Assembly: GCF_017996735.1 (NCBI RefSeq) | Contig: NZ_JAGOGJ010000005.1 | Coordinates: 58,764 to 122,763, forward strand | DNA length: 64,000 bases | Direction: 5' to 3' | DNA from: Niveispirillum sp. | GTDB taxonomy: Bacteria > Pseudomonadota > Alphaproteobacteria > Azospirillales > Azospirillaceae | In this document: one piece after another, positions 34,712-57,113 of the stretch | Position numbering within the stretch: the first letter of the stretch is position 1 | Layout: every line of letters starts with the position of its first letter | Notes under the pieces: generated by a model | The model's input: the letters and a program-made list of their open reading frames with translations, nothing else | What the model was told of the DNA's origin: nothing | Database searches by the model: none | Position numbers and translations under genes: made by a program

Positions 34712-35911
34712 CTATGGGCGGGCGGCCACGGCCTGGAAAAAGGCCAAGGTCTCATTCTCCAGCGTCTTCACCCAGGCGGTGGGCCAGTAGGACAGTTTCA
34801 CGATGACGGTCTTGCTGGCCGGATCGATCCAGATGAACTGGCCATGCACGCCCTTGGCCATATAGGCGTCGCTGTCCGGCAGGGTCCACCATTGATACTG
34901 ATAGCCCTGAACCCGGTCCGGCGCCGCCGGTTCCGTCCCCTGCGGGATGGTCGATGCCGCAACCCAGAACGCAGGCACCACCTGCCGGCCATTGGCCTTG
35001 CCACCATTCAGCATCATCAGGCCCAGGCGGCCATAATCGCGCAGCCGCGCATTGAACCCGGCCCCGGCCCAGGCGCGGCCCACACCCGGCAGCCCGTCCA
35101 GCAGCCAATATCCCGGCGCCTCCATGCCCGCCGGCTTCCACAGCCGGTCGGCCATGTAATCGGCCAGCGGCCGCTTGACCGCGCGTTCCAGGACCCAGCC
35201 CAGGACGCCGGCCTCCAGCGTCGAATAATTGAATAAGTCACCGGGCGGATGGGCGCGGTCGATGCCGATGGCCAGGTCGGTGAAACGCTGCCGGCCCGTG
35301 ACCAGGCTGTTTTCGTACAATTCCTCCATCTGGCTTTTCTGGCCAAACCCATAGGTCTCCCGGAACGCCGCACCCGACCGCATCAACAGGGCCTGGCGGA
35401 TGGTCACACCATCATAGGCGCCGCCCGCCAGTTCCGGCACATAGCGGGTCAGCGGGTCATCCACCCCGCCGATCAAGCCATCGGCAATGGCCTGCCCGAT
35501 CAGGATGGCGGTGATGGATTTCGCCATGGAGAAGGAGATGAACCGGCTCTCCGGCCCGCTATTGTTGCGGTAGATTTCATGCACAATCCGCCCGTCGCGG
35601 ATGACCAGCAGGGCATTGGTGCGCGTCCGCTCCAGAAAATCGGCGGTCGTGCGGCGCTGGCCGTCGAACTCATACAGGATATCCAGGGCCGTGATGGCCT
35701 CCGGCAGGCGCCATGTCTGCCGGCCGCTGGGCACGGGCGCGGTATCAAACATCTCGTCCATATGACGGAAGGTCAGGCTGTTCAGCTTGTCCCCGTAAAG
35801 CGCCCGCCGCGCCTCCTGCTGGCTGGGCGACACCTGCGCCGACACCGCCGGGACCAGCAGGCCCAGCACCAGCACAAGGGCGGCGGCCGGTCGGGCAAGG
35901 CGGAAGGGCAT
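34712..35911 (-). CDS. Secreted serine hydrolase (beta-lactamase/NylB-like fold)
   Basis: A 399-residue protein with a signal peptide (LVLVLGLLVPAVSAQ). The catalytic SMAK tetrad (Ser and Lys of SxxK) is in FISFSMAKSITAIL, the YxN-type tyrosine in NYSTLEAG and HGQFIW replaces the third box. It belongs to the class C beta-lactamase/esterase/6-aminohexanoate-dimer hydrolase group, whose members cleave esters or amides; the substrate is unknown. GGAG before the ATG at 35911 is well spaced, so I prefer it over 35917. It lies 82 bases after the beta-propeller phytase gene on the same strand, perhaps in one operon. Confidence 0.85.
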   Translation of the reverse strand: MPFRLARPAAALVLVLGLLVPAVSAQVSPSQQEARRALYGDKLNSLTFRHMDEMFDTAPVPSGRQTWRLPEAITALDILYEFDGQRRTTADFLERTRTNALLVIRDGRIVHEIYRNNSGPESRFISFSMAKSITAILIGQAIADGLIGGVDDPLTRYVPELAGGAYDGVTIRQALLMRSGAAFRETYGFGQKSQMEELYENSLVTGRQRFTDLAIGIDRAHPPGDLFNYSTLEAGVLGWVLERAVKRPLADYMADRLWKPAGMEAPGYWLLDGLPGVGRAWAGAGFNARLRDYGRLGLMMLNGGKANGRQVVPAFWVAASTIPQGTEPAAPDRVQGYQYQWWTLPDSDAYMAKGVHGQFIWIDPASKTVIVKLSYWPTAWVKTLENETLAFFQAVAARP

Positions 35912-35993
35912 CGGCATCTCCAGGCGTCCATGGGCTACAGGGATGCGATGATCCCGCATCCCCGCCCGTCTGGCAAATGCCGCGCCCGGTGCC

Positions 35994-37322
35994 TCAGCGC
36001 GGCGCCCAGCCGCCTTCCTTGACCGTCAGTTGCGGCAAGGCCGCGACGACATCGGCCCAGGACACATATTTGAAGTTGGTGGCCCCCGGCTCACCGCTCA
36101 TGCCGTTCAGGTCATCATTGTATCCGTCCTGCACGATCAGCAGGCCCTGCGGATATCCGGGCAGCGGGATCGACACCAGTTCGGCCCCGTCACATTCCTG
36201 GCCGGCATCGATGGGGCCATTGGCCGTCAGCTTGAAGCTGCCCAGATAGCGGTTGTCCCCGCCGCGTTCGAAGAGGACAAAACTGTCGTCAAGCCCGCCA
36301 TTGTCGGAATGGCCGCCATCACCATGGGCGTCGCCCTGGCTGGACGCGATCAGATAGCCGGTGCCGTCCGCGCCGCGATAAAGCGCCAGCCCTTCGACAT
36401 CGCGCGCCACCTTGCTGTCTGGATTGTTGAACGGGCTTTTCACCGATCCGCGCGTTTCATAGAAGGGCTTGGCGTCGGCCGTGCCCGTCTTCAGGTTCAC
36501 GCGCCACAGGCCCACATCCTCCTGACCTGCGAACAGGATGCCCGCTTCCGCATCCACCACCAGCCCCTCGAACTGCGGCGACCAGTCCTGTTCGGGATCA
36601 TCCTCATGCTCGGCCCACAGGTTCTGGCCCTTATGGGTGGTGGGGAAGTCCCAATGGCGGGTGCGCTCGTGCCCGACGGTGCCGTCGGGCTTCACCACCA
36701 GCCTTTGTTCAGCCAGCCGCGCCGCGTTGCGCTGCGCCACCACGGCCCGCACCTCGCCCGTCGCCTTGTCCTGCCACAGGGTCAGGCCGTAGGCGCTGGC
36801 CTGATCGGTCACGGGATTGTCGATCTCCGCCTTGCCATCGGGTGACAGGCGCGTGGGGAAGACCTGGCCCTGGTTCGGGTCGCTGATATCGGTCAGGGGC
36901 GCCGTCGGGTTGGCGGGATCAATGGCCCAGACCATCAGCCGGTCGCGGCCCCGGTCGCTGGCCACCGCGATATCGATGCTGGTGCCGTCGGGGCGCTTCA
37001 GCCCATAGGCCACATCGACATTGTTATAGCGGCCGTCAGGCTGGGCATCGATCCGCTGCACCAGCTTGCCCTGAAGATCATAGACCCGCAGGCCCGATCC
37101 CTTCACCGCCGTGATCACCAGGCTCTTGCCCGGGTCCGTGGGGTGCAGCCAGAAGGACGGATCGTCCGCATCGCCGGTCTGCACACTGTCCGGCAGACCC
37201 GGCGCGGTTTCCGCCACAGGCTTCACCAGCACAAGATCGGCTGTCGCCTTCGGGACGGCCTGCTTGTCATTGCCGCAAGCGGCCAGCAACAGCAATGCTG
37301 CAAAAGGGATCAGGGCACGCAT
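35994..37322 (-). CDS. Beta-propeller phytase lipoprotein
   Basis: A 442-residue 3-phytase of the six-bladed beta-propeller class, a calcium enzyme that removes phosphates from phytate (myo-inositol hexakisphosphate). The family signature DADDPSFWLHPTDPGKS is near residue 55, and further Asp/Glu-rich turns (DNPVTDQASAYGL, EGLVVDAEAG, DSKVARDVEGLAL, QDGYND) line the propeller. A lipoprotein signal ends in LLAACG, so it is anchored on the outer membrane. The start 37322 has GGGAG at good spacing; an upstream ATG at 37340 sits too close to its signal. It lies just downstream of iolA, fitting supply of inositol to that pathway. Confidence 0.9.
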   Translation of the reverse strand: MRALIPFAALLLLAACGNDKQAVPKATADLVLVKPVAETAPGLPDSVQTGDADDPSFWLHPTDPGKSLVITAVKGSGLRVYDLQGKLVQRIDAQPDGRYNNVDVAYGLKRPDGTSIDIAVASDRGRDRLMVWAIDPANPTAPLTDISDPNQGQVFPTRLSPDGKAEIDNPVTDQASAYGLTLWQDKATGEVRAVVAQRNAARLAEQRLVVKPDGTVGHERTRHWDFPTTHKGQNLWAEHEDDPEQDWSPQFEGLVVDAEAGILFAGQEDVGLWRVNLKTGTADAKPFYETRGSVKSPFNNPDSKVARDVEGLALYRGADGTGYLIASSQGDAHGDGGHSDNGGLDDSFVLFERGGDNRYLGSFKLTANGPIDAGQECDGAELVSIPLPGYPQGLLIVQDGYNDDLNGMSGEPGATNFKYVSWADVVAALPQLTVKEGGWAPR

Positions 37323-37362
37323 GGTCTCGGGATCTCCCATTCCTTGAGGATTTTTGTAAGGG

Positions 37363-37401: not shown

Positions 37402-38904
<1,503 letters not shown>

Positions 38905-38937: not shown

Positions 38938-39744
38938 TCAGCGCGTTCCCGTGATGATCCATTCATGGGCGGGGTCATTGTGGAAGCGCCACTTGCGCTC
39001 CGGCCCCGCCATCACATTCAGGTAATAAAGATCATAGCCATGGGGGGCGCCGACCGGGTGGTACCCGCGCGGCACCATCACCACATCGCCATCCTCCACA
39101 CACACCGTCTCATCCAGCGACCGGTCATCGGTATAGACACGCTGGAATGCAAAGCCCTGTGGCGGGTTCAGGCGGTGGTAATAGGTTTCCTCCAGCAAGG
39201 TCTCCGCCTCGCGCGCCGTATCATGCTTGTGCGGGGGATAGCTGGACCAATGGCCGCCGGGGGTGATCACCTCCACCACCAGCAGACTGTCGGCGGGCTC
39301 CCCTTCCGGCAGGATGTTGCGCACATGGCGGGTATTGGTCCCCTGCCCCCGCACCTCCCGCCCCATGCGGGCCGGTTCGATCAGGCGGGCCTCGCCGCCG
39401 GGCCGGCCGGGCGCGGAACAGACGGCCAGTTCGACGGGACCTTCCGCTGTCACCGTGTAAGAAACCCCGGCGGGGATATAGGCGGCACCGGGGGCGGCAT
39501 CGACAAACGGGCTTTCCCGGCCACCGGTCAGGCCCAGATCGACCTCCCCCGCCACAATCCGCGCCGTACCGGTGACCAGCACCAGGCAAAGCTCCCGATC
39601 CGCTTCATGCCCGGACAGGCTCTGTCCTGGTGTCAACCGGTGCAGGGCAAAGCCGACATGGCCCCAGCCCGCACTTTCCGGCGTCACCGACAGGGTGCGG
39701 CCATCGGCATCGGGGGCCGTCGGGCGGACACGCAGCCGGCTCAT
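38938..39744 (-). CDS. iolB: 5-deoxy-glucuronate isomerase
   Basis: A 268-residue double-cupin isomerase that turns 5-deoxy-glucuronate into 5-dehydro-2-deoxygluconate. It shows the family motifs SSYPPHKHD, the metal histidine/glutamate set in ETYYHRLNPPQGFAFQRVY and HPVGAPHGYDLYYLNVMAGP (three separate segments). Its ATG overlaps the stop of iolE by 4 bases, so the two are translationally coupled. Confidence 0.95.
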   Translation of the reverse strand: MSRLRVRPTAPDADGRTLSVTPESAGWGHVGFALHRLTPGQSLSGHEADRELCLVLVTGTARIVAGEVDLGLTGGRESPFVDAAPGAAYIPAGVSYTVTAEGPVELAVCSAPGRPGGEARLIEPARMGREVRGQGTNTRHVRNILPEGEPADSLLVVEVITPGGHWSSYPPHKHDTAREAETLLEETYYHRLNPPQGFAFQRVYTDDRSLDETVCVEDGDVVMVPRGYHPVGAPHGYDLYYLNVMAGPERKWRFHNDPAHEWIITGTR

Positions 39745-40649
39745 GATCCCCTCCCCACCACGGTCAGGCCCGCCGCCGTCGCGGCCTCGGTCAAGGTGCG
39801 GATGCCGATGCGGCCATAATCGGCCGGCGGGGCGATGGCCGGGTCCTGTTCGGCTTCCACGATGACCCAGCCGCTATAACCGATATCGGCCAGGGTACGC
39901 ATCACGGCGCCGAAATTGATGCCGCCATCGCCCGGCACGGTGAACATGCCGGCCAGCACCCCTTCCAGGAAACTCATCCCCGTTTCCCGCACACGGGCAA
40001 AGACATCCCCGCGGTAATCCTTGCAATGGACGTGGGCCACACGTTCGGGATGGTCGCGCAGCAGGGCCAGCGGATCGACCCCGCCCAGCACGGCATGTCC
40101 CGTATCCACGGTCAGACCGACACTCGGCCCCGTATGGCGCAGGAAGGCGTCCAGGTCCGCCGGCCGTTCGACCACGGTGCCCAGATGGTGGTGATAGGCC
40201 ATGCGCATGCCCTGGCCCTTCAGATAATCCGACACCGCCGTCAGCCGCGCGCCGAACTGCACCCATTCCGCCTCATTCAGGGACGGCGTGTCGTTCAGCG
40301 GGATTTCCTTGCGGCAATGGATGGCGTTGCTGGTCTCGGCAAAGACAAAAACATCGGTGCCCAGCGCCTTCAGCAGCGCCAGATGCGGCTGCAAGGCCGC
40401 GATCTCCGTGTCGGCGTCCTGGACCAGCAGATTGCCGCTGTACCAGCCGCCGACCAGATTCAGATCGTAACTGCCCAGCAGGTCGCGCAGGGCCGCCGGA
40501 TCGCGCGGGAAACGTCCGCCCAGTTCGATGCCGGTGAAGCCGATCTCGGCCGTGTCCGACAGGACCGTGGACAGCGGGGTGTCACCGCCCAGTTCGGGCA
40601 TATCGTCATTGATCCAGGCAATGGGGCTGACGCCAAAACGGATGCTCAT
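39741..40649 (-). CDS. iolE: Inosose dehydratase
   Basis: A 302-residue TIM-barrel enzyme of the xylose-isomerase-like superfamily that dehydrates 2-keto-myo-inositol. The N-terminus FGVSPIAWINDDMPELGG is the IolE signature, and metal ligands lie in GGRFP, GTVVERP, DTGHAV and HCKDYRGD. I chose ATG 40649, which starts MSIRFGVSP; the open frame upstream runs into repeat copy F. A 118-base gap holding that repeat separates it from iolD, unlike the tight overlaps elsewhere in the operon. Confidence 0.94.
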   Translation of the reverse strand: MSIRFGVSPIAWINDDMPELGGDTPLSTVLSDTAEIGFTGIELGGRFPRDPAALRDLLGSYDLNLVGGWYSGNLLVQDADTEIAALQPHLALLKALGTDVFVFAETSNAIHCRKEIPLNDTPSLNEAEWVQFGARLTAVSDYLKGQGMRMAYHHHLGTVVERPADLDAFLRHTGPSVGLTVDTGHAVLGGVDPLALLRDHPERVAHVHCKDYRGDVFARVRETGMSFLEGVLAGMFTVPGDGGINFGAVMRTLADIGYSGWVIVEAEQDPAIAPPADYGRIGIRTLTEAATAAGLTVVGRGS

Positions 40650-40688
40650 GGTCACAGGCCTTCGATTTTGATCTAGAATTGTTCCCTC

Positions 40689-40770
40689 AGGCGCCGGGCG
40701 CCGCCGTCCGGCGGCTTGGCTCACGCGCCCATGAGGGCGCGGGCCAGCGGTCGCTGGCCGCCAAGGATCA
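40689..40770 (-). repeat. Compound-hairpin repeat, copy F, inside the iol operon
   Basis: Stems GGCGCC/GGCGCC, GCCGCCG-TC-CGGCGGC, GCGCCC-ATGA-GGGCGC and GGCCAGCG/CGCTGGCC flank the linker CTTGGCT, in the same layout as copies A and E but with different stem bases. Its end TGATCC starts at the iolD stop codon. It could slow, end or protect the transcript between iolD and iolE. Confidence 0.65.
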
Positions 40771-42606
40771 TGTTCCACGACCCTTGGCCTCATAGGCGGC
40801 GCGCGCCTGGCGCACCTGCTCACGCGGGGAGGTTTCGGGCACCGCCACCTCCCACCAGGCACCACCACCGGCATCGGACGGGCGCGGGTCGGTATCGATG
40901 ACAATCACCGTGCTGCGGTCGGCTGTGCGGGCGCGGGCCAGCGCCGCCTCCAGCCCGGCAATATCCGCCACCTTCTCGGCGATGGCACCCAGGCTGGCGG
41001 CATGGGCCGCAAAATCGATGTCGGGCATGACCCGGTGGCGGGCATCGGCCAGCAGATTGTTGAAGGGCGCCCCGCCCGTGGCCGCCTGCAACCGGTTGAT
41101 GCAGCCGAAGCCGCGATTATCCAGCAGGGTGACAATCAGCTTCGTGCCCAGCATCACCGACACGGCCAGTTCGGAATTCATCATCAGGTAGGAACCGTCA
41201 CCCACCATGACATGCACGGGCCGCTGCGGCTGCGCCATGGCCACGCCGACACCGCCCGCGATTTCGTACCCCATGCAGGAATAGCCATATTCCATGTGGT
41301 AGCCACCGGGCCGTTTCACCCGCCACAGCTTGTGTAGGTCCCCCGGAAGGCCGCCGGCGGCGCAGACCATGATGGCATCCTGGGCGGAGGATCTCTGGAC
41401 CGCGCCGATCACCTGCGCATCGGTGGGCAGGCCGGGACCGGCGGGCGGGGCCGTCACCGCCTCGACCTGCGCATCCCACGCCGCCCGCGCATCGGCCAGG
41501 GCGGCAACCCAGCCGGCCGGCGCGGTCCAGCCGGACAGGCCAGCCGCCAGCAGGTCCAGGACACGGGCACCATCGCCCACCACCGGCAGGGCGCCCTGCT
41601 TGTACGCGTCGAAGGCGGCGACATTCACCTGCACCAGATCGCGGCCCCGATTATGGATCAGGCGACGCGATCCGGTGGTGAAATCGGCCAGACGCGTGCC
41701 GATGCCGATGATCAGGTCGGCTTCGTCCGCCGCCTTGTTGGCAACGGCACTGCCCGTCACGCCGATGGCGCCCAGATTGGCGGGATGGTTCCAGGCCAAG
41801 GCTCCCTTGCCGGCCTGCGTTTCCGCCACCGGCACACCGGTGGCGCGGGTGAAATCGGCCAGGATGTCGGCCGCACCGGCATAATGCACCCCGCCGCCGG
41901 CGATGATCAGCGGCCGTTTGGCCTTGGACAGACGGTCGCGCAGCATCCACAGTTCCCGCGGATCGGGTTCGACCCGCCGGAAATGCCAGAGGCGCGGTTC
42001 GAAGAAGCTTTCGGGCCAGTCATAGGCTTGCGCCTGCGTATCCTGACAGAAGGCCAGCGTCACCGGCCCGCAATCGGCCGGATCGATCAGCACCGCCATG
42101 GCGCGCGGCAGTGCGTCCAGCAACTGTTCCGGCCGGGCGATCCGGTCGAAATAGCGGCTGACGGGCCGGAAACAATCATTGGCCGACACGGTGCCGTCGC
42201 CAAAATCCTCCACCTGCTGCAAGACCGGGTCGGGCCGGCGGCTGGCGAAGACATCACCGGGCAGGAACAGCACCGGCAGGCGGTTGACATGGGCCAGCGC
42301 CGCCGCCGTCACCATGTTGGTGGCGCCGGGACCGATGGAACTGGTGCAGACCATGGCCCGGCGGCGGTTGCTGGCTTTGGCAAACGCGATGGCAGCATGG
42401 GCCATGCCCTGTTCATTATGCGCGCGATAGGTGGGCAGCGCATCGCCGATGCCGTGCAGCGCTTCGCCCAGACCGGCGACATTGCCATGGCCGAAAATGG
42501 CCCAGACCCCGGCGAAGAAGGGCACCGGTCCCCCGTCACCCTCCACGCTCTGCGCCGCCAGCCAGCGAACTGTGGCCTGGGCAGCGGTCAGTCGGATCGT
42601 GTTCAT
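40768..42606 (-). CDS. iolD: 3D-(3,5/4)-trihydroxycyclohexane-1,2-dione hydrolase
   Basis: A 612-residue thiamine-diphosphate enzyme that opens the inositol-derived ring to 5-deoxy-glucuronate. It begins IRLTAAQATVRWLAAQ. The ThDP glutamate is in the region of GHGNVAGLGEAL, and the Mg/ThDP motif runs from VGDGSYLMMNSE to LLDNRGFG. Length is normal for the family. Its start overlaps the end of iolC by 4 bases; the stop codon opens repeat copy F. Confidence 0.95.
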   Translation of the reverse strand: MNTIRLTAAQATVRWLAAQSVEGDGGPVPFFAGVWAIFGHGNVAGLGEALHGIGDALPTYRAHNEQGMAHAAIAFAKASNRRRAMVCTSSIGPGATNMVTAAALAHVNRLPVLFLPGDVFASRRPDPVLQQVEDFGDGTVSANDCFRPVSRYFDRIARPEQLLDALPRAMAVLIDPADCGPVTLAFCQDTQAQAYDWPESFFEPRLWHFRRVEPDPRELWMLRDRLSKAKRPLIIAGGGVHYAGAADILADFTRATGVPVAETQAGKGALAWNHPANLGAIGVTGSAVANKAADEADLIIGIGTRLADFTTGSRRLIHNRGRDLVQVNVAAFDAYKQGALPVVGDGARVLDLLAAGLSGWTAPAGWVAALADARAAWDAQVEAVTAPPAGPGLPTDAQVIGAVQRSSAQDAIMVCAAGGLPGDLHKLWRVKRPGGYHMEYGYSCMGYEIAGGVGVAMAQPQRPVHVMVGDGSYLMMNSELAVSVMLGTKLIVTLLDNRGFGCINRLQAATGGAPFNNLLADARHRVMPDIDFAAHAASLGAIAEKVADIAGLEAALARARTADRSTVIVIDTDPRPSDAGGGAWWEVAVPETSPREQVRQARAAYEAKGRGT

Positions 42607-44528: not shown

Positions 44529-44617
44529 TCAACACTCCCCATGCGTGTCGCGTGGACCCGTTCACCGGGCCGTCAATTCCGTCTCCATAGCTATGGCGTT
44601 TCACCGTGGAATGCAAT

Positions 44618-44631
44618 GGAAATTTCATTCC
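44618..44631. promoter_or_regulatory. IolR operator upstream of iolC, GGAA-N6-TTCC
   Basis: GGAA (44618-44621), ATTTCA, TTCC (44628-44631). This exactly matches the palindrome known for the RpiR-type IolR of Sinorhizobium. It lies between iolR and iolC, in AT-rich DNA suited to a promoter for iolCDEBA. Confidence 0.7.
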
Positions 44632-44659
44632 ATTTAAAAATAGAATGAATAATCCACCG

Positions 44660-45556: not shown

Positions 45557-45587
45557 CATGCCCCTCGGTTCCAACACGCTTTCAGAT

Positions 45588-45601
45588 AGAATATCCGTTC
45601 C
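45588..45601. promoter_or_regulatory. IolR-like operator between iolR and the first inositol dehydrogenase
   Basis: AGAA-TATCCG-TTCC, one base off GGAA-N6-TTCC, 32 bases upstream of the iolR start. It would allow autoregulation. Confidence 0.5.
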
Positions 45602-45660
45602 GGGATGGAATATCGACCCTTGAAGCTGAACGGCAGATGAATTCCATTTTTTGAATAGAA

Positions 45661-48066: not shown

Positions 48067-49347
48067 TCAGGGTTGGGAAGCGGCCTTCAGCTTGGCATCG
48101 ACGGCACTGAAGAAATCCTCGGCCCGGCAGGTGGTCTTGTCAGGCCCCTTGGCGCAGAGCGGCAGGGCCATATAGGTAACCACGGCCGGGTTGGCCTTCA
48201 GGTCCAGCGGTTCCAGGTTGCGCAACTGGTCCATGGTCTGGGCGCGATAGAAGGCGCGGATGAAGCGCTGGCCCTTCTGGTCGTGCAGCATCTCGATCCC
48301 GATGGCGCCGCCCGGCGGCGTGTCGTCGGCGGGATAGCTGTCGATGCGCCAGTGCAGGTCCAGCATGCCGGCCAGATCGGCGATGTTGGTGTCATGCCCG
48401 GCCATCAGCGCCAGCTTTACCTGACCATCCTGCAAATAGGACAGCAGCCGGCGCATGATGGGGGCTGCCGCCCGGTCGGCGATATAGGATGGCCGGTTCT
48501 CATACTTGAATTTCTGCGGATGGAAATTCAGCATCCGTTCGATATCGGCGCGGCTGGCCCGTCCCCAGGCCACCTGCTCCATCGGCTTGCCTTCCAGATA
48601 TTCCAGCAGGAAGGTCTGGCTGATGGTCGATCCCTGGCCGAAGGCTCCGCCGACATCGGGCCGCCCCTCCTCCTCATCCGCTTCCAGGGCGGTGTGCAGG
48701 TCGGTGATCTTGCACCCGGCCGGCAGCTTCTTCTTGGCGCACCATTCATCGCTCTGGCGGCCCAGCGCCTTCTGCAACAGGGCAAATTCCGTCTCGAACG
48801 CCGCCATATCCTGCTTCAGCCCGCCCGATGGCAGTTTGGCGGACGATGCCGCCATGGCCTTGGCGGGGTCCAGGCGGTTGGCCGGTACGGTCAGCGGATG
48901 GAAGACACTGTCCTCATCGGCCCCCGTCGGGTGGGTCACCGCGACCGTGCAGGTGGGCGCGAAGCCCTCCACCATGCTTTTGGCGGTGCGGATGGCGCGT
49001 TCCTTGGCGCTGGCCTCCACCTTGTACTGCGCCTCCGTCGGGCAGCCTTCGGCCGGGAACAGGCCGCGCGCGGCAAAGAACTGCCGGTCGAACCGGCCCA
49101 GCAGCACCACGCCCTGTGCGCCCCGGTCGGTCAGGTTGCCATAGGGCACGGACCAGGCGGGCCAGGGCTGTTCGGCCAGCCCCGCCGCCGGTTCCTTGGT
49201 GGGCGGGCGGATGCCGTGGCGGGTGAACATCGCCACCTTTTCCAGGGTCAGGCCCGCCGGTTGTGCCGGAAGCTCCACGGCCCCCGCCGTCAGCGGCAGG
49301 CACAGGGCGGTGGCAGCCAGAAGCGGGCGCAGCATCTTGCGCATCAT
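48067..49347 (-). CDS. Periplasmic histidine-acid phytase/phosphatase
   Basis: A 426-residue secreted phosphatase of the AppA/Agp class that removes phosphates from phytate or glucose 1-phosphate through a phosphohistidine. The signal peptide ends near LTAGA. The catalytic motif RHGIRPP is at residues 43-49 with the nucleophile H44, and the acid motif HDT is at H318-D319. Cysteines at 102, 133, 203 and 212 could form disulfides. It is 67 bases downstream of a TonB receptor on the same strand and probably in one operon with it. With the propeller phytase it gives this region two unrelated phytase types. Confidence 0.88.
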   Translation of the reverse strand: MMRKMLRPLLAATALCLPLTAGAVELPAQPAGLTLEKVAMFTRHGIRPPTKEPAAGLAEQPWPAWSVPYGNLTDRGAQGVVLLGRFDRQFFAARGLFPAEGCPTEAQYKVEASAKERAIRTAKSMVEGFAPTCTVAVTHPTGADEDSVFHPLTVPANRLDPAKAMAASSAKLPSGGLKQDMAAFETEFALLQKALGRQSDEWCAKKKLPAGCKITDLHTALEADEEEGRPDVGGAFGQGSTISQTFLLEYLEGKPMEQVAWGRASRADIERMLNFHPQKFKYENRPSYIADRAAAPIMRRLLSYLQDGQVKLALMAGHDTNIADLAGMLDLHWRIDSYPADDTPPGGAIGIEMLHDQKGQRFIRAFYRAQTMDQLRNLEPLDLKANPAVVTYMALPLCAKGPDKTTCRAEDFFSAVDAKLKAASQP

Positions 49348-49414: not shown

Positions 49415-51970
49415 TCAGTACTTGTACTGCGCGCCCAGCTTGAACGACCGGCCATAGCGCTCGGCCTCCGCCATCTGGTGCTTCTCGCCGATATAACGGC
49501 GGAACTTGGCATCGGTCAGGTTCGCCCCTTCCAGATAGACTTCCAGTTGCTTGGTGAAGTTGAAGCCGACGCGGGCGTCCATCGATCCGTTGCTGTCGGT
49601 ATAGATGTCGGTCGCCTTGTTGGCCCCCACCGTATCCAGGAAGGGCGACCGGTAGGAATAGGCGACGCGGGCCGACAGGCCATCCTTCTCATAATAGAGC
49701 TGGGCAGAGGCAACCCGCTTGGACTGGCTGAACATGGGCAGCGTGTCAGTGCGGCCCAGCACGCCCTTGGACTTGCTGTCCGTCAGGGTCAGGTTACCCT
49801 GCACACCCAACCCGTCAAACGGCGTTGGCAGGAACGTGCCCTGGATGCTGACATTGGCCTCCACACCCTTCACGGTCGCCGACTTGGCGTTCAACGGCGT
49901 GGTGACCAGGGCGGTCGGCAGGGTGATGCCCCCGAAGGTGCCATTGGTCACCGTAATGGCCTGGCTATAGATCGGGTTGTCGATATCCTTCTGGAACAGG
50001 GCCACCGACAGCACGCCCTGGCTGGCCAGGTAATATTCGGCCGACAGATCGAAATTCACGGCCTTCAGCGGGGTCAGATCGGGGTTGCCCTTATTGACCG
50101 TGGCTGCCCCCGTATCGACGGAGATGAAGGGCGGCAGATCGGCATAGTTGGGCCGGCCGATGGCCGTGGTCACCGCCCCGCGCAGAACAAAACGCTCATT
50201 CACATCGAACCGGGCATTGATGCCGGGGAACCAGTCCGTATAGCTGCCCTTGCCAAAGGAATTGAAATCCTGGTCGGGGGTGGAGGCGGCATTGATGATC
50301 TTGGCCGCAAAGTCACCCTTCGTATGCTCCATGCGCACGCCGGGGATCAGGGTCAGCCGGTCGAAGGTGATGGATGTCATGGCATAGGCCGCCGTCACAT
50401 CCTCCGTCACCTTGTAATCATTGGCCAGCGTGTTGGAGATGGAGCCCGACCGGCTATAGGCCAGCGAACCCGCGTGGGACGCGACATAGGCTTCCGCCGC
50501 ATCATAATCCACGCGCGGATCGATGGGGAAACGGCCGCCGAACACGGCGCGTCCCGTCGCCTCCCCCGTCACGGATGCCAGGGTGAAGCCGCTGGCGTCA
50601 TAGCTTTCGTAATCGCGGTTGTTCGACTTGTGCCGCGACAGGTACTTGGCACCCACCTTGATGAAGGCCTCGTCGCCCAGTTCCACGGGCAGCTTGTAAT
50701 CGGCCCGGTACTGGTAAAGGTTCTCCTCCGCCTTACGATGGTCGTAGGAGACGGAGCGCGCGCCGTAAAGCGCGGCGTTATAGGCTTCGGCCGCCGGCGT
50801 CACCTGATAGATATTGCCGGTCGTGTCATAGGTGGCGGTGAAGGCGTTGGAGCCGGTGCGGAACTGCCATTCACTGCGCAGCGGGTCTTCCTTCACGGCG
50901 CGGGTATAGGTGGCGTCCACCTCCAGCGTGCCGTCGCCGATCTCGAACTTGCCGCCGGCATTGGCGGTGACGGTATTGTCATCCTCCTCGCGCACACGGA
51001 CGAAACGGGTGCCGCGCGCCCGGAAACTGCCGGTGGTGGCCGTCTGTGCCGTGATGGTGGACGGGATTTCCACACGGAACTGGTCACGAACCTCGCTGTC
51101 GGAATATTCAGCATAGGAACTGCGCAGATACAGCTTGGTCGTGTCGTTGACGTTCCAGTCGAAATTGGCCACCCCGCCGATGCGCTTGCGGGTCAGGTTA
51201 TATTCGCGCGGCCGGAAATCATCGGGCACGGCATAGCCGCCGACGGTGCGCCAGTTGGTGGAGCCCTGCACATTCTCCGACCGGATGGGCCGTTCGTCAT
51301 AATTGGCGGAAAGGACCAGACCGAACTGCCGCTCATCGCCGAAAATATCGCCGACGGTCATATCGCCGCCGAACGGGTTCTTCTTGTTCAACTGGTACTG
51401 GCCGATGCTGCCCCGCGCCGTGGCGAAGAATTTGTTGCGGTCAAAGGCACTGACCGTATTGATATTGACCTGGCCGGCGATGGCGTTGGCGTCGCGGTCG
51501 GGCGTCAGGCTTTTCACCACTTCCACCGACCCGATCATGGCCGACGGAATATCGTCCAGCTTCACCGACCGCCCTGCCGGCTCCGGTGCCGCCGCCGTCT
51601 GGCCGTTCAGGGTGACATTGGCCAGATCGGGGCTGACACCACGGATGATGACATAACGGCCTTCGCCCTGATCGTTGGCCACCGACAGGCCGGGCAGGCG
51701 CTTGATGGCTTCAGCCACATTCTGATCGGGCAGCTTGCCGACATCATCGGCCACCACGGCGTCCATGATGCTGGTCGAATTCTGCTTCAGCTCCAGCGCT
51801 TTCTTTTCGGCCAGACGCATGCCCGTGACCTGGATTTCCTCCAGCATGTCGACCGCCGGCGGCGGCGACTGGGCGGCGGCCTGCGAGATAGCGGCGGTCA
51901 GGGCCAGCAGGCTGACACAACCCACCAGACGGTTGGTCAGCAGGGCGCCAGTTTTTGTCGACGGCGTCAT
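49415..51970 (-). CDS. TonB-dependent receptor linked to the phytase
   Basis: An 851-residue outer-membrane receptor. It has a signal peptide (residues about 10-35), a TonB-box-like LEEIQVTG, a plug domain (residues about 60-170; VAEAIKRLPGLSVANDQGEG and RYVIIRGVSPD) and a barrel ending in FKLGAQYKY with a terminal aromatic. It is of the TonB-Xanth-Caul type that usually imports carbohydrates. Transcription with the histidine-acid phytase suggests inositol phosphates or a phytate-metal complex as ligand; that is inference. GGAG before the ATG at 51970 is better spaced than for 51976. Confidence 0.9.
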   Translation of the reverse strand: MTPSTKTGALLTNRLVGCVSLLALTAAISQAAAQSPPPAVDMLEEIQVTGMRLAEKKALELKQNSTSIMDAVVADDVGKLPDQNVAEAIKRLPGLSVANDQGEGRYVIIRGVSPDLANVTLNGQTAAAPEPAGRSVKLDDIPSAMIGSVEVVKSLTPDRDANAIAGQVNINTVSAFDRNKFFATARGSIGQYQLNKKNPFGGDMTVGDIFGDERQFGLVLSANYDERPIRSENVQGSTNWRTVGGYAVPDDFRPREYNLTRKRIGGVANFDWNVNDTTKLYLRSSYAEYSDSEVRDQFRVEIPSTITAQTATTGSFRARGTRFVRVREEDDNTVTANAGGKFEIGDGTLEVDATYTRAVKEDPLRSEWQFRTGSNAFTATYDTTGNIYQVTPAAEAYNAALYGARSVSYDHRKAEENLYQYRADYKLPVELGDEAFIKVGAKYLSRHKSNNRDYESYDASGFTLASVTGEATGRAVFGGRFPIDPRVDYDAAEAYVASHAGSLAYSRSGSISNTLANDYKVTEDVTAAYAMTSITFDRLTLIPGVRMEHTKGDFAAKIINAASTPDQDFNSFGKGSYTDWFPGINARFDVNERFVLRGAVTTAIGRPNYADLPPFISVDTGAATVNKGNPDLTPLKAVNFDLSAEYYLASQGVLSVALFQKDIDNPIYSQAITVTNGTFGGITLPTALVTTPLNAKSATVKGVEANVSIQGTFLPTPFDGLGVQGNLTLTDSKSKGVLGRTDTLPMFSQSKRVASAQLYYEKDGLSARVAYSYRSPFLDTVGANKATDIYTDSNGSMDARVGFNFTKQLEVYLEGANLTDAKFRRYIGEKHQMAEAERYGRSFKLGAQYKY

Positions 51971-52311
51971 TGTCATCTCCAGAAAGGCTGATCTTCAAAC
52001 GGGGATGCTGAAAGGCGGCAAGGCATCCTGACCCTGCTTCTGGCGGTCATCCGCGACCGCGCCACGTCAGCCCCGTGAATTCTTCGTTGCAAGCAATTGC
52101 GGGAAATCCATGCAAAGCACAGATCCGCAGGTCGCGTTATCCGCCGCCAGGGCCGGGGGAACATGCATTCAACCGTGTGGATTTGTGCTGTCGTCTGCCG
52201 CGACCAGCCCTTCCGTGCCTGGGCATCATTGTCTCCCTGATTTGTTATTGTGATGGCCGACCCGTTGGGGAATCGCCACCGGTTTCGATTGTTGATGTGA
52301 TCTTATGAACG

Positions 52312-52343
52312 AAAATTCCATTCGTCAACAGAAATGGAATTTT
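52312..52343. promoter_or_regulatory. AT-rich palindrome upstream of tpiA and the TonB receptor
   Basis: AAAATTCCATT (52312-52322) and AATGGAATTTT (52333-52343) form a perfect 11-bp inverted repeat with a 10-base gap, carrying TTCC and GGAA half-sites in outward order. It lies in the divergent 650-base gap between the receptor and tpiA. The rest of that gap, 51971-52300, shows nothing I can name. Confidence 0.45.
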
Positions 52344-52367
52344 CCTTGTATTTTTTTCCAGGCCGTT

Positions 52368-52381
52368 GGAATTTGCGTTCC
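52368..52381. promoter_or_regulatory. IolR operator in the tpiA/TonB receptor gap, GGAA-N6-TTCC
   Basis: GGAA (52368-52371), TTTGCG, TTCC (52378-52381). An exact match to the IolR palindrome, 240 bases before tpiA and 400 bases before the divergent TonB receptor. Confidence 0.6.
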
Positions 52382-52432
52382 ACGGACGCCAAGGGCGCCG
52401 CCACCTCCCCCCGACATTGCCGGAGCCGCCCC

Positions 52433-52618: not shown

Positions 52619-52619
52619 T

Positions 52620-52633
52620 GGAATGAACGTTCC
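52620..52633. promoter_or_regulatory. GGAA-N6-TTCC over the tpiA start codon
   Basis: GGAA (52620-52623), TGAACG, TTCC (52630-52633) spans the ATG of tpiA. It matches the IolR palindrome and would make a downstream roadblock site, but part of it is fixed by codons, so chance is possible. Confidence 0.35.
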
Positions 52634-53375
52634 ATTTATCGCGGGGAATTGGAAAATGAACGGGTTGCGTGCCGACGGGCTGGCCCTGGCGCGCGATCTG
52701 GCGGATTGGCTGGCAACGGCCCGGCCAGGGTTGGAGATGCTGATCTGTCCGCCCGCCACCCTGCTGGCCGACATCGCCGCCATGGCGGCGGGCGGGCCGT
52801 TGCTGGTGGGTGCGCAGGATTGCCATCACCGGCCGGCCGGCGCCCATACGGGCGATCTTTCCGCCGCCATGCTGGCCGATGCGGGGGCCGGTCATGTTAT
52901 CCTGGGCCATTCCGAACGACGCGCACGGGGGGAGGACAGCGCCCTGATCGCAGCCAAGGCGGCGGCGGCCCTGTCGGCCGGCCTGCGCCCCCTGATCTGC
53001 ATCGGGGAAACCCTGGCGGAGCGGGAGGTGGGACAGGCCGGCAGCATCGTGACCGGGCAATTGCGTGACAGCCTGCCGCCCGGCATTGCCGCCGACAGGC
53101 TGATCATCGCCTATGAACCCGTCTGGGCCATCGGGACCGGCCGCACGGCCGATGCCGACACCATCGCCGCCATGCATGCGCTGATCAAGGCGGAACTATC
53201 GGCCCTGCTACCGGGTGGGGATGCTGTCCGCCTGCTCTATGGCGGCTCGGTGACGCCGGCCAATGCCGCCACCATCTTGCACCTGCCCGGCGTGGACGGG
53301 GTGCTGGTGGGCGGGGCCAGCCTGAAGGCAGCGGATTTCAAGGCGATTGCCCTTGGTGGAAGGGGCGGCGCCTGA
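52623..53375 (+). CDS. tpiA: Triosephosphate isomerase
   Basis: A 250-residue TIM barrel of normal length that interconverts DHAP and glyceraldehyde 3-phosphate. The active-site residues K11 (GNWKMNG), H96 (GHSERR) and E165 (YEPVWAIGTG) are all present. I chose ATG 52623 with GGAGGTG upstream. The place, inside a region of inositol and phytate genes and behind an IolR-type operator, suggests a dedicated copy to handle DHAP from inositol breakdown rather than the main glycolytic one. Whether another tpiA exists elsewhere cannot be seen here. Confidence 0.93.
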   Translation: MNVPFIAGNWKMNGLRADGLALARDLADWLATARPGLEMLICPPATLLADIAAMAAGGPLLVGAQDCHHRPAGAHTGDLSAAMLADAGAGHVILGHSERRARGEDSALIAAKAAAALSAGLRPLICIGETLAEREVGQAGSIVTGQLRDSLPPGIAADRLIIAYEPVWAIGTGRTADADTIAAMHALIKAELSALLPGGDAVRLLYGGSVTPANAATILHLPGVDGVLVGGASLKAADFKAIALGGRGGA

Positions 53376-53391: not shown

Positions 53392-54849
53392 TTATTGATA
53401 AAACGGCTTCTCCGGCCAGCCTTCCGGCATGTCGGTGCCGTAATAGCCGCCACCCTTGCGGAACCGTTCCAGACGCTTCAATTCGCCCGGATCGGCCTTC
53501 ACATCCCAGGTGCGCTTGCCATTGGTCAGGTCGGCCGGGGTCAGGACCAGCGGTTCCCACACCCGCGCGCCCGACACATCATGCAGGGTCATGGTCAGGC
53601 TGGGCTTGTCAACCATCTGGAAATCCAGAACGCCGACATTGACGCTGCGCGTCCAGGTGTCGCGGATACGCACCTCCGGCATCTGGCGCAGGTTCTTGGT
53701 GGCCGGCATCTGGGCCAGGGGCGAGGAACAGAGATCATAGATATCGTATCCACCATGGGCCGACCGGGGGATACAGTTCAGTTCACCCATATGGCTGTCG
53801 CCGGAGATGCAGACGACACCGCCGATATTCCGGTCACGCACGAAATCGAAGATCTCGTTGCGCTCCGTCATGAACACGCCCCAACTGTCGCCGCCCTTCT
53901 CATTCTCCGCCGTCGACCATCCGGTGCCGGAAACCAGCACCTTGAACACGGCCTTGCTCTCCAGCAGCGCCGCCTTCAGCCAGGCTTTCTGTGCGGGCCC
54001 CAGCATGGTCTTGCTGGCATCGTCACGGTTCTCCGTCGGATCGCGGTGATAGCGGCCATCCAGGAAGAAGAAATCCACCCCGCCATAGGATTGCTTGAAA
54101 TAGATGCCCTTGTTGCCCGCCTCCCCATAGGCGGGGTTGGGCCAGTAGTTCCGGAAAACCGCCAGCGACCCGTCCTTGTAGGGGCTGGTCCCGTCCGACC
54201 CGTTATAGCCGAAATCATGATCATCCCATATGGCCAGTTGCGGCGTGCTGCGCAACAGCGGTTCCAGGCGGCGGACCAGCCGTTCGCGACCGTACAGTTC
54301 GGCCAGGGCCGCCGGCTCGTCGCTGTCGCCATAGATATTGTCGCCCAGCCAGAAGAACATGTCCGGCTCCAGCGCCTGCACCACTGACCAGATGGGCTGT
54401 TCGGCATCGAACTGGATACGGCAGCAGGACCCGAAGGCGATGCGGAAATCCGCCTTGCCCGCCGGTGCCGTGCGCGTGCGATAGGGGAAAGGCTGCTCAC
54501 GATCCAGTTGACCGTCGAATTTCAGCCGGTACCAGTAGGTGGTGGCCGGCTTCAACCCCTCGGCCTGCAGGGTGACGCAGCAATCATCCTCTGCCCGCGC
54601 CGCTGCCGTCTGGCTGCTGATCACCTTGGCGAAGGTGCGCTCGGCGGCGATTTCCAGCGTCACATTGAAGGCACCGCTGGCCCGCACCCAGACGCTGATA
54701 TGGCCGGAACCGGGTGCACCCACCATGGGTCCCTGCAAGGCCCGCGGATAGCCCAGCACCGCCGCCAGCCCGGCCGCCGGCCACAGGGACGCACCGGCCA
54801 GTGCCGTCGTGCCGGCCAGGAACTGACGCCGGCTGCCATGGAAACGCAT
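53392..54849 (-). CDS. PhoD-type alkaline phosphatase/phosphodiesterase
   Basis: A 485-residue phosphatase of the PhoD family, a calcium/iron metallophosphoesterase exported by the Tat pathway. The twin-arginine signal MRFHGSRRQFLAGT opens the protein, followed by an N-terminal beta domain (residues about 40-130) and the metal site residues in FGSCC, WLGDNIYGD, AIWDDHDFGYN and SGDSHMGE. It would free phosphate from phosphodiesters or monoesters in the periplasm. ATG 54849 is spaced well from AAGGA inside the end of the inositol monophosphatase gene; 54858 is an alternative. It is the last gene of the transporter-IMPase-PhoD operon. Confidence 0.9.
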   Translation of the reverse strand: MRFHGSRRQFLAGTTALAGASLWPAAGLAAVLGYPRALQGPMVGAPGSGHISVWVRASGAFNVTLEIAAERTFAKVISSQTAAARAEDDCCVTLQAEGLKPATTYWYRLKFDGQLDREQPFPYRTRTAPAGKADFRIAFGSCCRIQFDAEQPIWSVVQALEPDMFFWLGDNIYGDSDEPAALAELYGRERLVRRLEPLLRSTPQLAIWDDHDFGYNGSDGTSPYKDGSLAVFRNYWPNPAYGEAGNKGIYFKQSYGGVDFFFLDGRYHRDPTENRDDASKTMLGPAQKAWLKAALLESKAVFKVLVSGTGWSTAENEKGGDSWGVFMTERNEIFDFVRDRNIGGVVCISGDSHMGELNCIPRSAHGGYDIYDLCSSPLAQMPATKNLRQMPEVRIRDTWTRSVNVGVLDFQMVDKPSLTMTLHDVSGARVWEPLVLTPADLTNGKRTWDVKADPGELKRLERFRKGGGYYGTDMPEGWPEKPFYQ

Positions 54850-54854
54850 GCTGC

Positions 54855-55673
54855 TCATCCTTCGTTCGGGGGCCCGTTCAAGGCTTGGTTCAACCGGTCC
54901 ACCAGGGCCGCATGGATGCGGCCATTGCTGATGCAGACATTCTGGCCGTGAAGATCCAGCCTGTCACCCCGGACATTGCTGACGGTGCCGCCCGCCTCCG
55001 ATGCCAGGATCAGGCCCGGCGCCATGTCCCAGGCATTCAGCGCCCGTTCCCAATAGGCGTCCCAGCGGCCACAGGCGACATAGGCCATGTCGACCGCACA
55101 GGCCCCCGTGCGGCGCAGCCCCGCCACATCGGCCGACAACAGGGCCATTTCGCGGGCAAAGACGGGATGGTCGGGCTTGCCCGCGAACGGCATGCCGCAG
55201 GACAGCACCGCATCGCCCAGCGTGGCGCGGGAGGAGACATGGATGCGCCGGCCGTTCAGCCAGGCCCCCCGCCCCTTCTCGGCCACGAACATTTCCTCCA
55301 TCACGGGGATATAAGTGACGCCGGCCACCACCTCGCCATCGCGCGCCAGGGCGACATTGACCCCCCAGAGCGGGCAGGAGAACAGGAAGTTCGTGGTGCC
55401 ATCCAGCGGATCGACGATCCAGCTATGGCTGGCATCGCGGCCACTGACCTGCCCGCCTTCTTCGCCCAGAAAGGCGTAATCGGGCCGGAAACGCGACAGG
55501 ATGGTGCGGGCGGTCTGCTCCGCCTCCTCATCCGCGACGGAGACAAGGTCCGCCGGTCCGCTTTTGGCGCGGATGACCAGATCGGACAGTTGCGAGAAGC
55601 GGCGCAGAAGCCCGTGACCGGCGGCCTGGGCCGCATCGATCATCGCCGACAGTTCGGGAGATGGGGAATTCAT
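54855..55673 (-). CDS. Inositol monophosphatase family protein
   Basis: A 272-residue phosphatase of the IMPase/SuhB superfamily. The metal-binding motifs GEEGG (E71, E72) and VDPLDGTTNF (D88, D91) and the C-terminal WDMAPGLILASEAGG are complete, so it should dephosphorylate myo-inositol monophosphates or related substrates with Mg. It has no signal peptide, so it is cytoplasmic. Its neighbours are a phosphate-ester transporter gene 6 bases upstream and phoD downstream. In this setting it would finish phytate breakdown to free inositol. Confidence 0.92.
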   Translation of the reverse strand: MNSPSPELSAMIDAAQAAGHGLLRRFSQLSDLVIRAKSGPADLVSVADEEAEQTARTILSRFRPDYAFLGEEGGQVSGRDASHSWIVDPLDGTTNFLFSCPLWGVNVALARDGEVVAGVTYIPVMEEMFVAEKGRGAWLNGRRIHVSSRATLGDAVLSCGMPFAGKPDHPVFAREMALLSADVAGLRRTGACAVDMAYVACGRWDAYWERALNAWDMAPGLILASEAGGTVSNVRGDRLDLHGQNVCISNGRIHAALVDRLNQALNGPPNEG

Positions 55674-55679
55674 GATGGA

Positions 55680-57026
55680 TCAGTCCCTCAATCGCGTGCG
55701 CCACAGGGTCGCCGCCAAAACCATGGAAACCACCGACGCGGCGATCCAGAACCAGATCACCGGGCCGAAATTGTAATGCCGGACCCCGTCGACCATGGTC
55801 ATGCCACGGTCGATCAGCATGCCGGAAACATGTTCCTGCAGGGCCGCCCCCACATAGCTGAAGATGCCGATGACCCCCATCGCCGCCCCCGCCACCCGCT
55901 TGGGTGCGATATCGACCGCGAACAGGCCGCCCAGGGAGGTGACAAGCCCCGTCATGCCGGCCCCGAACAACACCATGCCCAGCAGTAGCAGCGGCACGCT
56001 GTTCGGCCCGAAAAAGATCAGCAGCATGCCGATCAGTTCCAGCACACCGAACAGCAGGTTGGCCGGCGGGCGGCGCGACTGGAACAGCTTGTCCGACAAC
56101 AGGCCAAAGCTGATGGCGCCGACAATGCCGGCCACGGTGCTGACCATCAACAGCGTGCCCGCCATGGCCAGCGAATAGCCCCGCACCTCCTGCAAATACA
56201 GCACGCCCCAGGAATTGATGGCATAGCGGGTGACATAGGTGGTGGCCGATGCCAGACACAGGACCCAGATGGCGGGCAGTTTCAGGATGTGCAACTGCTG
56301 GGCCAGGACGGAACGCGGATCGGCCTTGGGCTTTTCCCCGTAATGATCGCCCTTCCAGTCATTGACGGGCGGCAGGCCCATTGTCTGCGGCCGGTCCTGC
56401 AACAGGAACCAGACAAAGGCGGCGGTGGCGATGCCGATCAGCCCCGGCCCGAAGAACCCGGCCTGCCAGCCCAGCCAGCCGACCAGCGATCCCACCACCA
56501 GGAAGGTCAGGCCTTCACCGATGGAATGGGCCGTGGACCAGACGCCATAGGCGCGGCCCCGCTCCCGGTTGGAGAACCAGGCCGTCATGGCCACCACCCC
56601 GCCCGGCGCGCCGAAACTCTGGAACCAGCCATTCAGGCCCCAGACCAGTACCGCCACCCAGACACTGGTGACAAACCCCATGGTCAGGTTGCACAGCGCC
56701 GTCAGCAGGAAGGTGACGGCCAGCGCGCGGCGGATATTGGCATGGTCGGCCAGAAACCCGTTGGTCAGCTTGCCGATGGCATAGGTGTAGAACAGGGCAG
56801 AGCCGATATGGCCCAGTTCCGCCGGCGAAAACACGTCCGCATCGATCAGCGGCTTCTTCACCACGCCCAGCGCCAGCCGGCAGGTATAGATCAGGCCATA
56901 GCCCAGCGTGATGGCCAGCATCACGCGCAGGCGATGACGGCGATAGGCTGCATCGATCTCCGCCGCCCCCGCCGTCACCGGCCGGTCAGGCCCGGTGGCG
57001 AAAAAGCCCAGCAACGCGCGCACCAT
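55680..57026 (-). CDS. Organophosphate:phosphate antiporter-type MFS transporter
   Basis: A 448-residue MFS protein of the OPA group (GlpT/UhpT/UhpC), with YGLIYTCRLALGVVKKP after helix 1 (conserved arginine), NGWFQSFGAPGGV and WFSNRERGRAYGVW motifs. Members exchange a sugar-phosphate or glycerol-phosphate for inorganic phosphate. It leads an operon with an inositol monophosphatase and a PhoD phosphatase and has an IolR-like site upstream, so inositol phosphate may be the cargo; that would be new for the group. GGAGGAG before the ATG at 57026 is a strong start signal. Confidence 0.85.
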   Translation of the reverse strand: MVRALLGFFATGPDRPVTAGAAEIDAAYRRHRLRVMLAITLGYGLIYTCRLALGVVKKPLIDADVFSPAELGHIGSALFYTYAIGKLTNGFLADHANIRRALAVTFLLTALCNLTMGFVTSVWVAVLVWGLNGWFQSFGAPGGVVAMTAWFSNRERGRAYGVWSTAHSIGEGLTFLVVGSLVGWLGWQAGFFGPGLIGIATAAFVWFLLQDRPQTMGLPPVNDWKGDHYGEKPKADPRSVLAQQLHILKLPAIWVLCLASATTYVTRYAINSWGVLYLQEVRGYSLAMAGTLLMVSTVAGIVGAISFGLLSDKLFQSRRPPANLLFGVLELIGMLLIFFGPNSVPLLLLGMVLFGAGMTGLVTSLGGLFAVDIAPKRVAGAAMGVIGIFSYVGAALQEHVSGMLIDRGMTMVDGVRHYNFGPVIWFWIAASVVSMVLAATLWRTRLRD

Positions 57027-57099
57027 GGCGCTCTCCTCCCTGACCGGACGGTTCATCCCGCCCCGTTGGAAGGCACGATATTCCATATTCCAAAAATTT

Positions 57100-57113
57100 A
57101 GAAGATATTTTCC
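57100..57113. promoter_or_regulatory. IolR-like operator before the OPA-type transporter
   Basis: AGAA-GATATT-TTCC, one base off GGAA-N6-TTCC, 74 bases upstream of the ATG at 57026 in a strongly AT-rich patch with two further GGAATAT half-sites on the minus strand. Confidence 0.5.

Follow-up and report, generated by a model that had tools for sequence, protein, structure and literature searches.

A 21-kb block in Niveispirillum joining two phytases, a TonB receptor and an organophosphate transporter to myo-inositol catabolism: a probable phytate-utilisation locus

The closest described counterpart of the locus reported here is the myo-inositol module of Caulobacter crescentus, which has iolG, an RpiR-type iolR and iolCDEBA and is marked by GGAA-N6-TTCC boxes (PMC2597717). 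Its IolR acts with these sites; deletion of iolR derepresses the iol promoters, and mutation of one site raises iolC expression. In the available parts of that report the importer is an ABC system, ibpA-iatA-iatP, encoded elsewhere, and no phytase, TonB receptor or transporter of the OPA family is named as part of the module, phytase occurring in the reference list only (PMC2597717). We analysed a stretch of 64,000 nucleotides from Niveispirillum sp. (contig NZ_JAGOGJ010000005.1; hereafter the window), taken from a genome of 7.47 Mb in 268 contigs, whose family Azospirillaceae belongs to the order Rhodospirillales in the NCBI taxonomy. Window positions 35994-57086 hold a 21-kb block in which a module of the Caulobacter kind is joined to two phytases, a TonB-dependent receptor, an OPA-family transporter and further phosphatases. 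It is fairly probable that this block is a phytate-utilisation locus, by which phytate would be taken in, dephosphorylated and broken down for carbon, likely under IolR.

Parts of such an arrangement have been described. In Citromicrobium a TonB-dependent transporter adjoins a phytase, with phytate as the proposed substrate, but the accessible text ties no iol genes, OPA transporter, monophosphatase or regulator to the pair (PMC3400609). A Caulobacter phytase controlled by UrpRS is treated, in the sections available, in connection with uranium and as a phosphate source (PMC8963506); kinase/regulator genes in 12 of the 30 related clusters described below would be of this kind, though the window's block yielded no pair of that sort. 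Surveys of iol clusters and of phytate cross-feeding likewise deal with the iol enzymes and with phytate as a source of inositol, but in the portions at hand they treat phytase and iol separately, partly in cross-feeding between different species (PMC9430895, PMC12838507). The carbohydrate utilisation loci of Xanthomonas share the logic of receptor, enzymes, importer and regulator, but for sugar substrates, and the main text, as far as available, does not mention inositol (PMC1790865). Titles, abstracts and passages of the open literature gave no account of phytase, TonB receptor, iol genes and OPA transporter as one locus; the subscription literature lies mostly outside this search, and absence from print is not claimed. 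Older work reportedly noted propeller phytases beside TonB receptors.

Searches with Pfam and NCBIfam profiles confirmed the gene families of the block, the features of which are as follows (IolR-type boxes are scored against TGGAA-N6-TTCCA).

35994..37340, minus strand: beta-propeller phytase, likely a lipoprotein (PF02333, E 3.8e-50, 171 bits against a cut-off of 21; Bacillus phytases in PDB, E 6e-35); the lipobox is read from the sequence, provided that translation starts at the Met at 37322
37402..38904, minus strand: iolA, malonate/methylmalonate-semialdehyde dehydrogenase (TIGR01722, 659.6 bits, cut-off 448.5)
38938..39744, minus strand: iolB (TIGR04378, 334 bits, cut-off 205)
39741..40661, minus strand: iolE (TIGR04379, 376 bits, cut-off 290); start set by relatives, the longest open reading frame running to 40904 and the alignment to locus L010 starting at residue 82
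40768..42606, minus strand: iolD (TIGR04377, 924 bits, cut-off 715)
42603..44528, minus strand: iolC kinase fused to a DUF2090 aldolase, IolC-IolJ (NF047869, 758 bits, cut-off 600)
44617..44632: IolR-type box, 10/10, 96 bp before iolC
44660..45559, minus strand: iolR, RpiR/SIS regulator (PF01418 and PF01380); start uncertain, longest open reading frame to 45784
45587..45675: three IolR-type boxes (45587, 45631 and 45660), 8/10 each, between iolR and iolG1
45651..46715, plus strand: iolG1, inositol dehydrogenase family (GFO/IDH; PDB inositol dehydrogenases, E 5e-73); start uncertain
46730..47710, plus strand: iolG2, inositol dehydrogenase family (GFO/IDH; PDB inositol 2-dehydrogenase, E 3e-86)
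48067..49347, minus strand: AppA-type histidine acid phytase with signal peptide (PF00328; PDB phytase 4arv, E 9e-60; RHGIRPPTK and HDTN)
49415..51976, minus strand: TonB-dependent receptor, 67 bp before the AppA-type phytase (PF00593, PF07715; TIGR01782, 610 bits, cut-off 310)
52305..52382: three IolR-type boxes (52305, 8/10; 52335, 8/10; 52367, 10/10), about 340-400 bp before the receptor
52619..52634: IolR-type box, 10/10, spanning the tpiA start codon (9/10 in G003 and G006); its role is unsure because it overlaps coding sequence
52623..53375, plus strand: tpiA (PF00121, E 5e-76)
53392..54858, minus strand: PhoD-like phosphatase with a twin-arginine signal, SRRQFLAG (PF09423, PF16655)
54855..55673, minus strand: inositol monophosphatase family protein with no apparent signal peptide (PF00459, E 1.3e-56; PDB SuhB-type, E 5e-67)
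55680..57086, minus strand: OPA-family organophosphate transporter, GlpT-like MFS (PF07690; GlpT 1pw4, E 1e-53)
57099..57114: IolR-type box, 9/10, 20 bp before the OPA gene (also 9/10 in G003 and G006)

The genes fall into minus-strand units (OPA-monophosphatase-PhoD; receptor-AppA-type phytase; iolR; iolC(J)-D-E-B-A-propeller phytase) and plus-strand units (tpiA; iolG1-iolG2), several starts being internal to the longest open reading frames (iolE, iolR, tpiA). In gene content the block is a TonB-dependent utilisation locus, with receptor, enzymes, inner-membrane transporter and regulator together. It is also an iol cluster: iolB, iolE, iolD and the iolC fusion score above curated cut-offs and iolA above that for methylmalonate-semialdehyde dehydrogenase, while iolG is assigned by Pfam and PDB. 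The tpiA gene is the second copy in the genome, the other lying on contig C249. An initial annotation, made from the letters alone, had named two unrelated phytases, a TonB receptor, an OPA transporter, an inositol monophosphatase, PhoD, two inositol dehydrogenases, iolCDEBA, iolR and tpiA; every family was recovered by Pfam and NCBIfam, and the overall interpretation, that phytate is stripped of phosphates and its inositol fed to central metabolism, is supported. The annotated extent is borne out for 35994-57086 and has to be trimmed at one end, where 34712-35959 encodes a PF00144 serine hydrolase outside the block. In two genomes of the same genus (G003 and G006 in our numbering) the block keeps the same order from OPA to propeller phytase, with proteins 80-99% identical; neither has a relative of the serine hydrolase after its propeller phytase, and the block therefore ends at that phytase. 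The hydrolase gene, just downstream of it, may be particular to this strain.

Synteny, the check that could have exposed the phytases and transporter as accidental neighbours, gave the opposite result: phytase, TonB receptor, OPA transporter and monophosphatase are again met near iol genes in members of Sphingomonadales, Caulobacterales and Lysobacterales. For the AppA-type phytase the nearest named loci belong to a Niveispirillum metagenome-assembled genome (MAG; 94%) and to alphaproteobacterium AAP38 (93%). A scan of named genomes for this enzyme found 19 loci, with iol genes beside it in 13 (Niveispirillum, AAP38, Brevundimonas, a Lysobacterales MAG, Pseudoxanthomonas, Rhodanobacter, Luteimonas, Sphingopyxis and Sphingomonas). 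Among the others, L015 and L024 end before iol genes could show, and L027, on a short contig, is only distantly homologous. A match on a Novosphingobium plasmid (45%) stands without iol genes in the 33 kb read. The best relatives of the OPA transporter (73-78%, among the 120 best of 4665) include proteins of Luteimonas, Pseudoxanthomonas, Rhodanobacter and Sphingomonas flavalba. In four genomes of the Luteimonas order (Luteimonas wenzhouensis, G082, with G271, G087 and G328) the OPA and monophosphatase genes, 70-76% identical to those of the window, lie directly downstream of iolA, with PhoD also present in three of the four; these seemingly local additions therefore belong to the set.

We then surveyed the iolC neighbourhoods of samples from the orders of Luteimonas (250 genomes), Sphingopyxis (296) and Brevundimonas (249), which contain iolC (NF047869, E up to 1e-100) in 26, 14 and 16 genomes, respectively. 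Up to 19.5 kb was taken on each side of iolC, and more for G082, G271, G087 and G328; 52 of the 56 neighbourhoods were readable (at least 25 kb), G084, G494, G242 and G277 being dropped for short contigs. A propeller phytase is present in 30 of the 52 (9/24, 13/13 and 8/15 for the three orders), within 19.5 kb of iolC in 29 and at about 26 kb in G271, whose phytases are 22-26 kb distant from iolC. An AppA-type phytase (at least 40%) is present in nine, all among these 30; weak AppA-like matches (26-27%) near iolC in G766, G776 and G826 were excluded from the phytase count. The OPA transporter occurs in 24 of the 30 neighbourhoods with phytase and in none of the 22 without, and the monophosphatase in the same 24 and again in none of the 22. 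PhoD occurs in 13/30 versus 0/22 and an inositol-type ABC binding protein in 3/30 versus 14/22; Fisher values for these contrasts overstate independence, because 15 of the 22 neighbourhoods without phytase are from a single order sample, 14 of them forming one iolD clade. In Caulobacterales alone the OPA transporter accompanies five of eight neighbourhoods with phytase and none of seven without. The OPA, monophosphatase and PhoD queries were taken from the window; phytase clusters supplied those for non-window receptors, for the second receptor and for the kinase pair, and the counts of these are biased. In 17 of the 24 clusters the OPA gene directly follows iolA (11), iolB (3) or the receptor (3), with gaps of up to 150 bp; in the window it stands apart.

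In the Sphingopyxis order a propeller phytase is found in 111 of 296 genomes, and the 13 readable iolC genomes carry 17 such genes (two-domain genes counted once), 13 of them beside iolC. In two order samples, AppA-type enzymes that match the order's own query at E 1e-130 or better are found at 3-22 kb from iolC in nine of nine genomes, or seven of seven once the two query genomes are set aside; among the 24 remaining genomes, whose AppA homologues are weaker, two have iolC, distant from the homologue. The Sphingopyxis-order propeller phytases beside iolC (for example L019, 4957-7269) have long frames of about 670-720 residues, several with two phytase matches, whereas most propeller phytases elsewhere are single, of about 350-400 residues; the two-domain form may be a catabolic type.

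The block also carries the marks of a Caulobacter-type IolR regulon, namely an RpiR/SIS gene and GGAA-N6-TTCC boxes before gene units. The perfect palindrome TGGAA-N6-TTCCA occurs three times in the 64 kb: 96 bp before iolC, between the receptor and tpiA, and across the tpiA start. Three further sites have one mismatch, one of them 20 bp before the OPA gene and two outside the block. Together these six sites compare with 1.2 expected, four of the six fall in the block, and none of 100 shuffles gave as many. IolR would be expected to bind and repress at these boxes, judging from their likeness to the Caulobacter sites.

Before the receptor, the same palindrome also stands out in loci outside the genus. 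With raw palindrome counts, uncorrected for base composition, the IolR box came 8th of 1024 for six loci and 5th when the window was added, among palindromes of G and C only; the counts were then corrected with dinucleotide shuffles and the test was repeated on unused loci. By excess over shuffles the palindrome ranks 1st of 1024 in seven loci outside the genus (13 sites versus 0.64 expected; 0/200 shuffles), and again 1st of 1024 in 11 previously unused loci whose IolR is at least 50% identical (17 versus 1.36 expected, in 10 of 11 regions; 0/200 shuffles). In seven loci with a best IolR match below 50% it ranks 226th, with two sites versus 1.24 expected; the 50% split is our own choice, and the siblings G863 (49.6%) and G834 (50.0%) fall on either side of it. 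The IolR side comprises 15 loci, which are not independent because several are near-siblings (G476/G501, G677/G831, G727/G762); all but two have a site, the exceptions being G084, which lacks upstream DNA, and G328, which lacks a site, and ten of the 15 have a pair of sites 30 bp apart. The window has the 30-bp pair too (52305/52335), as in other orders. L026, a receptor and phytase with no iol genes nearby, has no IolR-type site before the receptor (best 6/10), and L011, also with no iol genes seen nearby, has one distant weak site. Three findings are new here: the recurrence across orders, the linkage of phytase with OPA transporter and monophosphatase, and the presence of IolR-type boxes upstream of receptor and OPA gene. 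The gene set that the initial annotation took for a new combined system is not peculiar to this genome; a phytase adjoining a TonB receptor, like the regulon of IolR, had been published before. A leader of about 340 bases (51977-52304), of the same length in L009 and L010, separates the box pair from the start of the receptor gene; Rfam has no match in it, the search at E 0.1 yielding only two matches in all, at chance level and below the gathering score.

Because IolR-like boxes precede most gene units of the block, phytate is likely used as food and not merely mined for phosphate. The receptor would bring phytate or other inositol polyphosphates across the outer membrane. Signals in the predicted proteins point to a lipoprotein (propeller phytase), a periplasmic enzyme (AppA-type phytase), a Tat-exported PhoD and a cytoplasmic monophosphatase; the two phytases, perhaps with PhoD, would strip the substrate mostly to inositol monophosphate. 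Histidine acid phytases of the AppA type are recognised by RHGxRxP and HD motifs, which are present in 23/24 and 24/24 of the matches listed (some being one gene under two handles), and phytate hydrolysis by the window's enzyme is predicted accordingly from its sequence. The OPA transporter would import inositol monophosphate across the inner membrane against inorganic phosphate, also disposing of surplus phosphate. OPA relatives such as GlpT swap organophosphate for phosphate, which they bind with two arginines, and both arginines are aligned in the window's protein against 1pw4. A phosphate-exporting antiporter would suit a carbon-directed system, because the six phosphates that phytate carries per six carbons exceed need, and the pairing of a cytoplasmic monophosphatase with an organophosphate transporter would be explained if the inositol comes in as its monophosphate. 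The window's genome (G000) has no match at E 1e-15 to the ibpA-like inositol ABC binding protein of L020, and a relative is lacking in 13 of 14 genomes tested, the window's included, MFS-type inositol importers not having been searched for; 13 of the 14 genomes carry the OPA transporter, G010 not doing so in the sense of that test. The monophosphatase would release myo-inositol, which IolG, IolE, IolD, IolB, the IolC-IolJ fusion and IolA would convert to dihydroxyacetone phosphate and acetyl-CoA, the established products of the iol pathway; the extra TpiA would pass the former into glycolysis. As long as inositol breakdown has not begun, IolR would repress the units of iolC, iolG, the receptor and the OPA gene.

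Several observations weigh against this reading. The AppA-type phytase reaches 236 bits where the NCBIfam AppA equivalog has a cut-off of 585, the OPA transporter 252 where that for UhpC is 564, and the monophosphatase 173 against 275 for HisN and 170 against 332 for another NCBIfam equivalog, so that the exact activities of all three are predicted only. Sources label OPA relatives 'UhpC-like sensor', and the best PDB match of the receptor, the colicin I receptor (E 2e-6), is uninformative on substrate. Inositol monophosphatases act poorly on the 2-phosphate left by AppA-type enzymes. Receptor and AppA-type phytase stand without iol genes in the sequence at hand of L011, L016 and L026. The initial claim of control by one repressor agrees with the IolR-type boxes read before iolC, iolR/iolG, receptor and OPA gene; it falls short at the propeller phytase, which lacks a separate box in the window and would rely on transcription running on from the iol operon.

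It is unlikely, though it deserves weight, that the OPA-monophosphatase-PhoD unit serves another organophosphate (glycerol-3-phosphate, hexose phosphates or glycerophosphoinositol), or that the OPA protein is a UhpC-like sensor, with inositol entering by an unseen importer. GlpT is the nearest solved structure, the sensor label comes from a source, and in G082, G476 and G501 the OPA gene shares a cluster with inositol BPD-type ABC genes. Against it stand the 24/30 versus 0/22 distribution of OPA and monophosphatase with phytase and the IolR-type box before the OPA gene, which is kept in the window, G003 and G006 although the gene has moved and stands apart there; as for a sensor, no UhpB-like partner lies beside the OPA gene in the window. 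We regard it as quite improbable that the block is a phosphate-scavenging locus, with phytases and receptor under the phosphate-starvation system and the iol genes mopping up released inositol. Phytases and PhoD are commonly phosphorus-acquisition enzymes, and a Caulobacter phytase is, in the part of the report available, required for growth with phytate as sole phosphate source (PMC8963506). No PHO-box-like site (up to three mismatches to the consensus) lies in the block or anywhere in 34-58 kb, however, and the three in the window are all outside that interval, with 3.5 expected by chance; receptor and OPA gene are marked by IolR-type boxes instead, and a second receptor-phytase pair in the genome could supply phosphorus. 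That the genes are accidental neighbours assembled in this genus is very hard to credit: the presence of the OPA transporter in only four of 82 genomes of the window's own family and the receptor-phytase pairs without iol genes would fit, but recurrence in three other orders, in several gene orders and with boxes that track the presence of a close IolR, argues otherwise.

In a 57-row tree of iolD the orders are interspersed: five changes are needed for each of the three, where one would suffice, and well-supported branches force four or five of these; the locus has therefore likely moved between orders. Phytase, and in part the OPA transporter, accompany two deep iolD lineages with differing regulators, pointing to repeated assembly of the combination, or to its rebuilding. 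We put forward tentatively, at somewhat less than even chance, a mobile locus in which the receptor is a dedicated active phytate importer and the OPA protein an inositol-monophosphate:phosphate antiporter, assembled at least twice on different iol lineages and regulators. If so, inositol would enter still phosphorylated, each imported molecule paying out one surplus phosphate.

Phytate is the main phosphate store of plants and a leading form of soil organic phosphorus, mostly discussed as a phosphorus source. If the block is under an inositol repressor, some bacteria would treat phytate as carbon and release most of its phosphate to their surroundings, which bears on soil phosphate cycling. 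The block offers candidates for two steps to which the literature, as far as available, assigns no tested protein, namely active import of phytate across the outer membrane and of inositol monophosphate across the inner membrane, and the gene set with its boxes is a marker for finding such bacteria in genomes. In the part of the study at hand, phytate-baited beads were dominated by Sphingomonas and Caulobacter (PMC5017799).

Related loci show further features. A second propeller phytase in the window's genome (L148, G000:C124:1-19500, at 10556-11878), 91% identical to that of the window, has its own TonB receptor directly upstream (35% to the L019 receptor) and no iol genes in the 19.5 kb read. 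In another genome of the genus (L149, G010:C28, 9911-13757) a receptor and AppA-type phytase (73-74%) stand with no iol or OPA genes in 19.5 kb. The kinase/regulator pair noted above, which may be UrpRS-like, and a second TonB receptor, present in 17 of the 30 phytase clusters (by the biased queries, as for the pair), accompany many related clusters (L034, 7551-12039; L017, 7482-13276; L021, 5452-9874); the second receptor, like the pair, was not found in the window's block. In G746 the order is phytase-iolG-iolR-iolCDEBA-regulator-kinase, which fits the place of the UrpRS-controlled Caulobacter phytase, presumably beside iol genes by its locus number. Relatives of the OPA transporter at 42% are carried on Plesiomonas and Vibrio plasmids (NZ_CP062197.1, NZ_CP027853.1 and NZ_AP028132.1).

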